Positions 3,577 to 6,601 of a stretch of 8,627 nt of DNA are shown in pieces. The notes below the pieces were generated by a model that worked only from the letters and a program-made list of their open reading frames with translations, did not search any database and had not been told where the DNA came from. The translations under genes were made by a program, and so were the position numbers. How positions within the stretch are numbered: position 1 is the stretch's first letter; every line of letters begins with the position of its first letter. This DNA is from Deltaproteobacteria bacterium RIFOXYA12_FULL_61_11 (GTDB taxonomy: Bacteria > Bdellovibrionota_F > JAHFAK01 > YA12-FULL-61-11): the NCBI GenBank assembly GCA_001799195.1, contig MGSU01000112.1, forward strand, positions 1-8,627, in the 5' to 3' direction.

Positions 3577-4257
3577 TTAATGATAACGGACGATACACCA
3601 GATAGCCCGAACCGCGTCTTTGATCCCGATCTTCTTGCCCTCGGCATACCCCCGGCCGAAATAGCTGATCCCCACCTCGTAGATACGGAGATTGCGCTTG
3701 GCGATCTTGGCCGTGAACTCTGGTTCGAAGCCGAAACGATCCTCTCGCAGGTCCAGGCCCTCGAGGACCTCTCGGCGGAAGGCCTTGAAGCCGGTCTCCA
3801 TGTCAGTCAGGTTGAGGTTGGTGAACATGTTGGAGCAGAGGGTCAGCAAGCGGTTGCCGAGATAGTGCCAGAAGAACAGCACCCTGTGCGGTTTACTGCC
3901 CTGGAAGCGCGAACCGTAGACCACGTCGGCATAATCGCGGAGCAGGGGTTCGAGGAGCTGGGGATAGTCCTTGGGGTGGTATTCCAGATCCGCGTCCTGG
4001 ATCAGGATAATCTCGCCTCGAGCCTCGGAGAACCCGGCGCGCAGGGCGAAACCCTTGCCGCGGTTCCTCGGCAACTCGACCAACCGGGCACCGAAACGGC
4101 TCACCTGCCGGCGCAACAAAGCCCTGGTACCGTCGGTGGAACCGTCGTCGATGACGATGAGCTCGCGCTCCGGCAAATCCACGGCCGCCACGCGCTCGAG
4201 CACCTCGAGGATGGTGGCCGCTTCGTTGAAGACCGGAATGAGAATGGACACCTTCAT
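3577..4257 (-). CDS. Family 2 glycosyltransferase, dolichol/polyprenol-phosphate mannose synthase (DPM1)-like
   Basis: This encodes a 226-residue cytoplasmic or membrane-associated GT-A glycosyltransferase. Such enzymes move a sugar from a nucleotide sugar onto a polyprenyl phosphate, supplying lipid-linked donors for envelope glycans or glycoproteins. The sequence starts MKVSILIPVFNEAATI, typical of GT2. It continues with VIDDGSTDGT (D37, D38, D42, nucleotide binding), NRGKGFALRAGF, the metal-binding D88-A-D90 in LIQDADLEYHP, GSRF at 115-118, TDMETGFKAF (about 151-160), FGFEPEFTAKIAK (about 175-187) and the C-terminal GYAEGKKIGIKDAVRAIW motif of the DPM1 subgroup. No C-terminal transmembrane domain is present, so it matches the short DPM1-like form. 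The ATG at 4257 is chosen over a GTG at 4311 because it places the family motif at the N-terminus; no clear Shine-Dalgarno is visible for it. Acceptor and sugar cannot be deduced. Confidence 0.91.
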   Translation of the reverse strand: MKVSILIPVFNEAATILEVLERVAAVDLPERELIVIDDGSTDGTRALLRRQVSRFGARLVELPRNRGKGFALRAGFSEARGEIILIQDADLEYHPKDYPQLLEPLLRDYADVVYGSRFQGSKPHRVLFFWHYLGNRLLTLCSNMFTNLNLTDMETGFKAFRREVLEGLDLREDRFGFEPEFTAKIAKRNLRIYEVGISYFGRGYAEGKKIGIKDAVRAIWCIVRYH

Positions 4258-4338
4258 GACCGAGGACGATAGCAGCAGCCGGGAAAGCCGGTCAAGTGCC
4301 GAAACCCACACTCGGTAACCATACTAGTAAAGGGGTAT

Positions 4339-4474
4339 TTCAGTTTTGGGTGGTTCAAGGGGTCCTGTCACCTCTCACCCCCACCATGCTCATTCTTGCG
4401 CGTGGTGGGGACCCCCCGTCGGTGCCACCCCATCGTTGGAGGGGGCACTCAAGTGCAATTCACCCAAAACTGAA
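4339..4474. repeat. 136-bp segment with perfect 14-nt terminal inverted repeats (MITE-like or large hairpin)
   Basis: The left end TTCAGTTTTGGGTG (4339-4352) and the right end CACCCAAAACTGAA (4461-4474) are exact reverse complements, separated by 108 bp of non-coding sequence. The interior is G/C-homopolymer rich and contains smaller hairpins, the strongest at 4379-4410. This shape fits a miniature inverted-repeat transposable element or a decayed insertion-sequence remnant. There is no obvious target-site duplication: the left flank ends GGGGTAT and the right flank begins CTTCTG. No transposase fragment is visible. It could instead be a structured RNA or a regulatory hairpin. I do not recognise the repeat sequence with confidence. 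Confidence 0.45.
4379..4410. repeat. GC-rich hairpin inside the inverted-repeat segment
   Basis: CCCCACCA (4379-4386) pairs with TGGTGGGG (4403-4410), and the stem extends inward by a G-T wobble and a G-C pair to 10 bp with a 12-nt loop. No T-run follows on the plus strand, so it is not a classical intrinsic terminator in that direction. It probably belongs to the folding of the surrounding 136-bp element. Confidence 0.5.
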
Positions 4475-4543
4475 CTTCTGAAGCCTTACACCTTCGATCG
4501 CCCACCGACGTGGGTCCTGAATTCCCCGGGACTTGTTCAGTCA

Positions 4544-4559
4544 GTGTACAATGGTACAC
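4544..4559. promoter_or_regulatory. 16-bp palindrome GTGTAC-N4-GTACAC, candidate operator
   Basis: GTGTAC (4544-4549) and GTACAC (4554-4559) are exact inverted copies around AATG. The site ends about 20 bp upstream of the predicted -35 box of the regulator gene, a position suited to activator or repressor binding. The adjacent gene encodes a predicted DNA-binding protein, so autoregulation is a reasonable inference, but no binding-site consensus for this family is known to me. Confidence 0.4.
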
Positions 4560-4578
4560 ACTTTCTCAGCTCAGCGCT

Positions 4579-4606
4579 TTGGCTTGCGGGCAGTTCGGGT
4601 TATACT
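4579..4606 (+). promoter_or_regulatory. Sigma70-like promoter for the regulator-lipoprotein operon
   Basis: A -35 candidate TTGGCT (4579-4584, 4 of 6 consensus) is separated by 16 bp from a -10 candidate TATACT (4601-4606, 5 of 6 consensus). Transcription would begin near 4613, giving a leader of about 50 nt before the ATG at 4666. The -10 match stands out in this GC-rich context; the -35 is moderate. Confidence 0.5.
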
Positions 4607-4665
4607 TCCAAAGGTGAACCAGAGCGATCGGTTACCACCCATGCGCGAGGTACCCCGGGTCGGTT

Positions 4666-5502
4666 ATGGCGGTGAATATTTTCGACTACGATGACTATCG
4701 CGTGTTCCTGCGCGACAGGTTCGACGAGCTCAAGAAAGAGAAGTCTCAGTTCTCCTTCCGATTCTTCGCCCGAAAAGCGGGTCTCGCGGCGTGGAACTTC
4801 CCAAGCCTGGTGATCAAGGGGAAGCGCAACCTCTCCAAAGAGAGCGTGTATAAATTCTCCACCGCGCTCGGGCTGCAGCCCAAGGAACACGAGTATTTCG
4901 AGAACCTCGTGTTCCTCAACCAAGCCGACACGATCAAAGAGAAGAACCATTACTACCTCAAATTGAACAAAGTCCGCGGTCCCTCGAAGATCAAGAGATT
5001 GTTGGAACTGGAGTTTTCCTATTATTCCGAGTGGTACATCCCGGTGCTGCGCGAAATGGTCGAACTGGCGGGGTTGCCCGAGGACCCCGAACGCATCGCC
5101 AAGCTCCTGGATCCACCCATCACCCGCAGAGAGGTGGAGAGGGGTTTCTCCGTACTCGAAGAACTGGGGTTGATCGAGTACGTCGAAGGACGCCGGGTCA
5201 AAAAGGACCGCACCCTGACGACCGACAGCGAGGCCCGTAGCCTGCTGATCAAGAACTTCCACCATCGCATGATCTCTCTCGGCCTCGAGGCCCTGGACCG
5301 TTTCCAACCCGACGAGCGCAACATCTCCTCCCTGACGCTCTCCATCACAGATGAACAGTTCGAGGAGGTCAAACGCCGCACCTACGAATTCATGCAGGAA
5401 ATCCTTGCCCTGGTGACCAACGAGAAGAGAACTGATAGAATCTACCAGTGCAACTTCCAGCTCTTCCCCTTGACGAGGAGCATACATACACATGAGGATT
5501 GA
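4666..5502 (+). CDS. TIGR02147 family transcriptional regulator (DUF4423 domain)
   Basis: This encodes a 278-residue protein of the TIGR02147 family, first noted as a paralogous family in Fibrobacter succinogenes and also present in Bdellovibrio-like bacteria. It opens with the family signature NIFDYDDYRVFLRDRFDELK, then FSFRFFARKAGLAAWNFPSLV (about 29-49) and GKRNLSKESVYKFSTALGL (52-70), which look like an XRE-like helix-turn-helix. ALGL..KEHEYFENLVFLNQA follows (68-87). The DUF4423 region spans about 110-270 and contains a winged-helix-like segment ITRREVERGFSVLEELGLIEY (152-172). No signal peptide or membrane segment is seen. The ATG at 4666 is used because the family motif starts four residues later; its ribosome binding site is weak (GAGGT 14 nt away). 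It overlaps the downstream lipoprotein gene by 11 nt, so the two are probably one operon and the regulator may control it. Family call is strong; target genes and signal are unknown. Confidence 0.9.
   Translation: MAVNIFDYDDYRVFLRDRFDELKKEKSQFSFRFFARKAGLAAWNFPSLVIKGKRNLSKESVYKFSTALGLQPKEHEYFENLVFLNQADTIKEKNHYYLKLNKVRGPSKIKRLLELEFSYYSEWYIPVLREMVELAGLPEDPERIAKLLDPPITRREVERGFSVLEELGLIEYVEGRRVKKDRTLTTDSEARSLLIKNFHHRMISLGLEALDRFQPDERNISSLTLSITDEQFEEVKRRTYEFMQEILALVTNEKRTDRIYQCNFQLFPLTRSIHTHED
5475..5480 (+). promoter_or_regulatory. Ribosome binding site of the lipoprotein gene, inside the regulator gene
   Basis: GAGGAG lies within the last codons of the regulator gene, 11 nt before the lipoprotein ATG at 5492. 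The spacing is somewhat long, and the intervening bases are a low-complexity CATACATACACA. Because the start overlaps the regulator stop, ribosomes ending the regulator could reinitiate here. Confidence 0.5.
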
Positions 5503-6601
5503 ACCTCGGATCACCGCTCCTCTCCGGAGCTGCAACGGACTCTTGGTCTTGCTCCTGGGAGGATCCATCTTCTTCGGCTGCGAAGACCGCACCAAGGATA
5601 CCCCCGATACCTCGAGTCCCGCCCGAACGGCCCTCGAAGAAACGCTGGCCGACGGTTCCGCCACCGAGGAGGCGAACACCGGCGGTTCTCCGCTCTCCGG
5701 GGAACTCAACACGCCCATCACCGACGATGCGGCCAAGGCCGCTCTCCAGGGCGAAGCCCTGGCAGGGGGGACGGGTACGGGAAACCCTCTGGCCGGAGGC
5801 AGCGGCACGGGGAACCCCATCGTCGTCGCGCCGCAGGACCCCGCGCTCGCGAGCGAGTACATCAGCGCCAACCAGAGCCTCGAGCTCGCTGCGCTGCTCC
5901 AGCGCGAGGACATCGGTTGCGCGGTAGTCCTCACCGATAAACTGCCCGAGGGGAGCACCGTCGACCACCTGATCGTCAGGATCACGGAACTGCGCCTCCT
6001 CGGTTCCGGTGAGGGGGAGGTGTTCCTGCCCCTCGAAGATCAGAGTATCGACCTGACCACCCTCCGCGAAGGACGCACCACCATCCTCTCGACCTTGCTC
6101 CTGCCCCAAAAGAGTTTCCGCGGGTTGGATTTCCGGCTCGCTCCCGACTACTCCCTGCAGATCAACGGGAACACCGTCGAGGTCGACGTGCCCGGAGAGC
6201 GGATCAAGGTGCTCGGTGACTTCGACCTCTCCTCGGACCGGGATTTGCTCTTCGTCCTGGACTTCTCCCCCGAGGAATCCCTCATGCCTCGCGGGTCCGG
6301 CGGAGGCTATCTGTTACATCCCGTCGTTCGGCTCAAGACCATTGCGGAATGGAGAGAGGGGGCCTTCTACATCCTGCAACACCATACGAACAACCAGGAC
6401 ATCACCGCTACCGAGACCGGCGAGACGAGCGCAGACCAGAGTATGGTCGACAATTCAGGAGATCATGCCGGCGAGTTCCCCCCCGAGACCGGGGGAGGGG
6501 ATGGTTCGGGAGATAGGATGCTCCAGGATCCGGTAGAAGATCCGAAAGGCGATGGCAAGATCCTCAAGCCCGGCGCTGATGCGGAACGAACGCTGCGCTG
6601 A
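5492..6601 (+). CDS. Predicted lipoprotein with DUF4382-like domain
   Basis: This encodes a 369-residue exported lipoprotein. A short basic N-terminus (three Arg) is followed by a hydrophobic stretch NGLLVLLLGGSIFFGC, with Cys30 as the likely lipidated residue. The lipobox (F-F-G-C) is not canonical because -3 is Phe instead of Leu. Glu at +2 suggests the outer membrane. Residues 31-125 are a low-complexity linker (Thr/Gly/Glu/Pro-rich) with a 10-residue tandem repeat LAGG(T/S)GTGNP at 90-109. Residues about 141-285 match the DUF4382 pattern: VVLTDKLPEG..VDHLIVRITELRL, SIDLTTLREG, LLLPQKSFRGLDFRL, an NG-x-x-V turn, LLFVLDFSPEESL and GGYLLHPVVRLK. The pattern predicts a beta-sandwich. The C-terminal 70 residues are acidic and Gly-rich, probably disordered. 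It follows a TIGR02147 regulator with an 11-nt overlap, so co-expression is expected. No enzymatic residues are apparent; function is unknown. Confidence 0.8.
   Translation: MRIEPRITAPLRSCNGLLVLLLGGSIFFGCEDRTKDTPDTSSPARTALEETLADGSATEEANTGGSPLSGELNTPITDDAAKAALQGEALAGGTGTGNPLAGGSGTGNPIVVAPQDPALASEYISANQSLELAALLQREDIGCAVVLTDKLPEGSTVDHLIVRITELRLLGSGEGEVFLPLEDQSIDLTTLREGRTTILSTLLLPQKSFRGLDFRLAPDYSLQINGNTVEVDVPGERIKVLGDFDLSSDRDLLFVLDFSPEESLMPRGSGGGYLLHPVVRLKTIAEWREGAFYILQHHTNNQDITATETGETSADQSMVDNSGDHAGEFPPETGGGDGSGDRMLQDPVEDPKGDGKILKPGADAERTLR
5759..5818 (+). repeat. 30-bp tandem duplication encoding LAGG(T/S)GTGNP twice
   Basis: Two consecutive 30-nt units (5759-5788 and 5789-5818) encode ten residues each, differing only at Thr/Ser at the protein level. 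The DNA copies differ at several third positions, so the duplication is old or kept by selection on the protein. It sits in the linker between the lipidated Cys and the DUF4382-like domain. Confidence 0.75.

Follow-up and report, generated by a model that had tools for sequence, protein, structure and literature searches.

The locus studied here consists of a gene for a putative DNA-binding regulator of the TIGR02147 family and an overlapping lipoprotein gene, which raises the question of whether such pairs recur and, if so, what ties the exported protein to its regulator. The window, i.e. the whole stretch of 8,627 nucleotides that was analysed, lies on contig C112 of the 4.64-Mb draft genome of Deltaproteobacteria bacterium RIFOXYA12_FULL_61_11 (342 contigs, 87% complete). 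The features relevant to this question are the following:

3577-4257, minus strand: glycosyltransferase gene, upstream neighbour
4544-4559, no strand: inverted repeat GTGTACAATGGTACAC (GTGTAC-AATG-GTACAC), candidate private operator, function inferred
4579-4606, plus strand: sigma-70-like promoter TTGGCT-16-TATACT, consensus match only
4666-5502, plus strand: TIGR02147/DUF4423 regulator, 278 aa, from profile matches and model
5492-6601, plus strand: partner lipoprotein with DUF4382, 369 aa, from open reading frame and Pfam match
5567-5581, plus strand: lipobox-like IFFGC in the partner, read by eye, lipidated Cys30 predicted
5765-5788, plus strand: motif copy 1 of the partner, GGTGTGNP (residues 92-99)
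5795-5818, plus strand: motif copy 2 of the partner, GGSGTGNP (residues 102-109), in different codons
6610-8625, minus strand: M3 peptidase gene, downstream neighbour

Most of what the preliminary description stated about the layout of the locus was found again: the regulator and partner reading frames share 11 nt, the glycosyltransferase and M3 peptidase genes on either side are both on the opposite strand, and the -10/-35 pair is the consensus match listed above. What had been called a perfect 16-bp palindrome is more exactly made of two 6-bp arms (GTGTAC/GTACAC, 12 paired bases) around an asymmetric 4-bp AATG spacer. This inverted repeat is above chance (0.07 expected in the window), stops 19 nt ahead of the sigma-70-like site, and is centred at about -61.5 relative to the start site predicted from that promoter-like site. 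Positions 4339-4480 (searched as 4322-4490) contain a palindromic, structured repeat some 140 nt long, with a closing stem CAGTTTTGGGTG/CACCCAAAACTG and internal hairpins (MFE -78.6 kcal/mol, z -6.7). It has about 40 matches in the source genome with 80-94% identity, the copies in L266 and L276 carrying an additional insert at the same point, and a match in Rfam was not found; the repeat resembles a MITE or an element of the REP type.

Residues 3-271 of the window regulator match TIGR02147 (E 8e-75, 251.7 bits, cut-off 50), and the protein also matches DUF4423 (E 3e-36, 125 bits, cut-off 30). According to the profiles and an AlphaFold2 model (pLDDT 90), its N-terminus (residues 8-85 approximately) is an Xre-type HTH similar to those of HigA, SinR and C-protein; the DUF4423 half (about 112-269) is modelled as a MarR/SlyA-like winged HTH (141-179) followed by two long helices. 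The protein ends with a conserved strand, IYQCNFQLFPLT, for which the family consensus is [IV]YQxNxQxFPL, and residues Y11, R12, W123 and R218 are near-invariant. No significant full-length relative of the model was returned by Foldseek (best E 0.15), and the matches from VIA-align cover chiefly the HTH (HigA-like, Z about 8-9), with a weak match to 4g6q (Z 7.2) for the C-terminal half. The viral library gave nothing significant, and the phage and defence libraries only a generic HTH match. The window regulator is a cytosolic, one-component DNA-binding protein with two HTH domains and no known ligand. The NCBIfam entry for TIGR02147 (Fsuc_second) describes a paralogous family only, leaving partner, motif and function unassigned. 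Within the open-access literature searched, TIGR02147 is named in no paper, and DUF4423 in a single one, where the DUF4423 protein Bd3700 is among the up-regulated Bdellovibrio proteins (PMC12546842).

The source genome has seven TIGR02147 genes, six of which precede a gene for an exported protein. At five loci (L001-L005, L004 being the window) the regulator is followed by a lipoprotein gene with overlaps of 4-28 nt, and at L007 by a secreted protein starting with SIVGNGGDG after about 105 nt (this partner was taken by reading, the automatic scan having picked another frame). The remaining gene, L006 (L233, 3892-4737), lacks a motif partner and precedes sdhC and a succinate dehydrogenase flavoprotein gene. 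Four of the lipoproteins carry tandem copies of a GG[TS]xxGNP-type motif (two in the window, three in L001, the third being GGVEIGNP, four in L002 and two in L003), and the L005 partner has CGIGVGNP. In a scan of the source genome for GG[TS]xxGNP, exported open reading frames with the motif were found at paired loci only. TIGR02147 was not found in G001, the one genome from the same class that was compared, and the search yielded no orthologue of the window locus.

Relatives were found in the Fibrobacterota (including Chitinivibrionales) and the Bdellovibrionota, at 5 to 82 copies per genome, and also in 13 of 385 other genomes sampled. The largest expansions are those of G033 (a Fibrobacterota, 82 copies), G034 and G041 (48 each), with a maximum of 48 for the Bdellovibrionota, so that the description of TIGR02147 as an expanded paralogous family holds for the source genome and elsewhere. 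The suggestion that the pairing may recur at other loci was also borne out. After a first survey, in which 80 loci were retrieved and their downstream gene was read, the full count was made on 148 distinct regulators from several phyla, each with at least 400 nt of downstream sequence. A same-strand open reading frame starts between -80 and +150 nt from the regulator stop in 128 of them, and an exported partner, defined by a hydrophobic N-terminus within the same interval, lies behind 125. Regulator and partner overlap in 97 of these 125 pairs, by exactly 4 nt (ATGA, the commonest case) in 60; all counts include related paralogues. Almost all Fibrobacterota regulators have behind them a lipoprotein in which a stretch of the kind AGGGSETGNG, GSETTNG, TEIGNP or TDTGN comes right after the lipobox. 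Partners in the Bdellovibrionota are of two kinds, lipoproteins (CGTDTGNP, NGTTVGNP) and secreted proteins with VGNGGG, and some regulator subfamilies of this phylum (C-terminus CLNIDWF and others) lack a partner.

The idea of the palindrome as a regulatory site was only partly supported. Palindromes with arms of at least 7 are found upstream of 39 of 99 regulators, compared with 13.6 expected from dinucleotide shuffles, and upstream of 36 of 83 regulators compared with 16 of 117 other intergenic regions from the same loci. The control regions are somewhat richer in G+C (0.43 vs 0.37 upstream of regulators), and part of the excess may therefore be due to composition. The palindromes differ between genes and are terminator-like in only 5 of the 39 cases, which suggests, on sequence grounds, that each paralogue has a private autoregulatory operator. 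The sequence from the window, on the other hand, is absent from the other cassettes of the source genome, and a palindrome common to these paralogous cassettes was rejected, given that only short half-site-like matches were obtained (CAATGGTAC with L001 and ATGGTACAC with L002), not above chance. The exact GTGTAC-N4-GTACAC occurs at three sites in the 4.6-Mb genome. One of the others, in L197 around 1501, precedes a lipoprotein gene (MKAIILLTALLALTLGCTSED...), has no TIGR02147 gene in its vicinity and is a possible trans target of the window regulator; the other, in L195, is in a region of unclear coding.

The partners themselves are diverse. The window partner has a hydrophobic N-terminus and matches DUF4382 over residues 145-277 (E 7e-10, 39.6 bits, cut-off 25). 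Among 74 partners scanned against Pfam, CarboxypepD_reg was found in 29, Laminin_G_3 in 12, DUF2341 in 11 and DUF4382 in 2, and Kelch, LRR, pectate lyase and FGE-sulfatase domains were seen once each. Partner lengths are typically from 130 to over 800 aa, and the motif is found in lipoproteins and non-lipoproteins. The partner bodies are unrelated, and export and the motif are what they have in common. Several secreted partners of the VGNGG/NNGGG type, mostly from Bdellovibrionota, the partners of L143, L159 and L007 among them, have a hydrophobic-HE stretch (LLLHERI, VLHEVGHD, VLHELYY), which suggests metal-binding or protease-like domains.

The motif, which the preliminary description did not mention, lies in a flexible stretch after the signal peptide or lipobox and has the consensus G-[TS]-[ED]-[TVI]-G-N, or more loosely G-[TS]-x-[TIV]-G-N-[PG]. 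Unsupervised EM on 77 partner N-termini returned GGGTETGN (N in 62% at position 8, E in 52% at position 5), with a log-likelihood of 280 compared with 128 for residue-shuffled sequences. By score or pattern, 97 of 125 partners have the motif, compared with 3 of 77 other exported-like open reading frames from the same loci (Fisher p 1e-27), one of these three being a member of a three-gene cassette. This p value overstates independence, because the paralogues are related and the set partly trained the model. For the loci outside the motif model (L235-L261, 21 regulators with an exported partner), 15 partners pass the score cut-off, and all 21 have the motif or a close variant by eye, the six below the cut-off showing EIGNG, KTGNG, KVGNGG, DVGGGG, TVGDGG and VIGNGADG; eight of the 21 cases come from one family near training genomes (G106, G246, G375). 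The consensus is approximate, the motif being weaker in some Fibrobacter partners (L110-L115). Its distance to the signal peptide is loose: in Fibrobacterota it adjoins the lipobox, in the window it comes some 60 residues further on, and in L199/L204 it is deep within the mature part. The copies differ in their codons, even when in tandem within one gene, and the motif is therefore conserved as protein, with selection acting on the protein.

The strongest evidence for a specific relation between motif and regulator is the reverse search, in which the motif alone was matched in the DNA and the regulator was ignored: 27 of the 29 exported proteins thus found are directly behind a TIGR02147 gene. 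For ETTNG in five Fibrobacterota genomes, 30 matches were inspected. A lipobox precedes the match in 20 of them, 18 with TIGR02147 immediately upstream; for one of the two exceptions the regulator gene is co-oriented but lies two genes ahead, and the other is a truncated orphan. For T[ED]xGNP in 13 genomes, all nine distinct exported proteins are paired; they come from three phyla and include proteins of a Bdellovibrionota and of the source genome. For VGNGG in six Bdellovibrionota genomes, N-terminal matches are paired in three of three cases and others in none of three. Among chance matches elsewhere in proteins, none has a regulator immediately upstream. The motif is probably what links the partner to the regulator.

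The reading which we favour, without granting it an even chance, is that the window holds one instance of a cassette that recurs, composed of an autoregulated regulator and a motif-tagged exported protein, and that the regulator reads the motif. In such a cassette the gene for the tagged partner comes directly behind the TIGR02147 gene and is translationally coupled to it, each regulator would bind its own palindromic operator and control its own cassette, and the motif would be the element by which the partner reports back; operator binding and reporting are both inferred. Within this reading, a regulator synthesised beside the nascent N-terminus of its partner would most likely bind the motif of the precursor while this is still cytosolic, transcription would then follow the amount of partner exported or not exported, and tandem copies (2-4 in the source genome) would raise avidity. 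Direct recognition of the T-G-N motif by TIGR02147 before export, making the cassette a self-contained secretion gauge, is rather unlikely when taken by itself; it would account for the motif and regulator being inseparable and for the overlap being so often 4 nt. The contact between regulator and motif is inferred, with no experiment or complex model showing it. In an AlphaFold run on a fused regulator and partner (the in-frame read-through of L239, used as an artificial probe), the partner segment is unstructured (pLDDT 30-46). Regulator and partner divergences are not correlated in G034 (r = -0.01; about 0.44 in two other genomes), and fine co-adaptation is hence not evident. The existence of regulators that lack a partner (L006 and the Bdellovibrionota subfamilies) and the merely approximate consensus also speak against the favoured reading. 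It is in G034 as if partner bodies had been swapped among cassettes.

The main rival to direct recognition is that the motif serves in the envelope, as a tag for sorting, surface display, anchoring or processing, and that TIGR02147 only controls expression and never touches it. This is quite possible, though on the unlikely side: the motif belongs to the portion of the protein that ends up in the envelope, close to the N-terminus of the mature form, and is shared by lipoproteins and non-lipoproteins, but a general tag would also be expected on exported proteins without a regulator, which the reverse search hardly found, and the loose spacing from the signal peptide is unlike that of a typical processing signal. 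A role in signalling, in which a motif peptide would be cut from the exported protein, re-imported and sensed by the regulator as in RRNPPA systems, has in its favour that an HTH regulator is encoded beside an exported source of peptide and that the tandem motifs of the source genome resemble multi-copy propeptides (PMC9765709). We consider it doubtful, as the partners are mostly large multidomain proteins rather than short propeptides, TPR repeats are not apparent in the predicted C-terminal half, and a motif that is near-identical across paralogues would leave little signal specificity.

Slightly more doubtful still is descent alone, with all cassettes derived from one ancestral pair and the motif a functionless remnant. 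Cassettes clearly duplicate within genomes, and the similarities of regulator and partner do correlate in two of them; against this, the bodies have diverged past recognition or been exchanged while the motif was kept, in varied codons, in at least three phyla, and it was retained in G034 without any such correlation. That what is conserved is a DNA site, an operator internal to the partner gene, is hardly conceivable: its position close behind the regulator gene would suit an operator, but third codon positions vary freely, also when the tandem copies of a single gene are compared. Conservation of the motif at the DNA level was ruled out by this codon variation.

Fibrobacterota are cellulose degraders and Bdellovibrionota are predatory bacteria. 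TIGR02147, of which a single genome can have as many as 82 copies, previously had no assigned function; the motif predicts the partner of each regulator, brings together hundreds of surface proteins that lack annotation, and is a short peptide that can be tested as a ligand. If it is the regulator that reads the motif, this would be a new coupling of transcription to export, and if it is the envelope, a new sorting tag; secretion gauges working in parallel by the dozen in one genome, every one under a separate operator, would amount to a new envelope regulation across several phyla. That tag and regulator are almost never apart points to an undescribed mode of cell-surface control. A description of the pairing or of the motif was not found in the open-access literature, subscription journals and preprints being outside the scope of the search.

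Among known systems, the cassettes are similar to RRNPPA (Rgg, PlcR, PrgX), in which an HTH regulator is also encoded beside the gene of an exported product, in some cases with repeated short peptides (PMC9765709), and the window regulator has an N-terminal Xre-type HTH (residues 8-85 of the model). The RRNPPA receptor is however a TPR domain, whereas DUF4423 looks like a winged HTH with helices in the model; a PDB comparison gave only an N-terminal match, to ElrR, and the absence of TPR is not conclusive. The exported product is a short propeptide in RRNPPA and a full-size surface protein here, and RRNPPA have been described in Firmicutes, whereas TIGR02147 cassettes are found in Fibrobacterota and Bdellovibrionota. 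The cassettes cannot be equated with DUF4382 lipoproteins either, since the window partner has this domain but most partners do not. The tag itself can be likened to protein-sorting tags recognised by genomics such as PEP-CTERM (PMC1569441), also a short tag common to otherwise unrelated exported proteins, but the tag of the cassettes is on the N-terminal side and is tied to an adjacent regulator gene instead of a processing enzyme.
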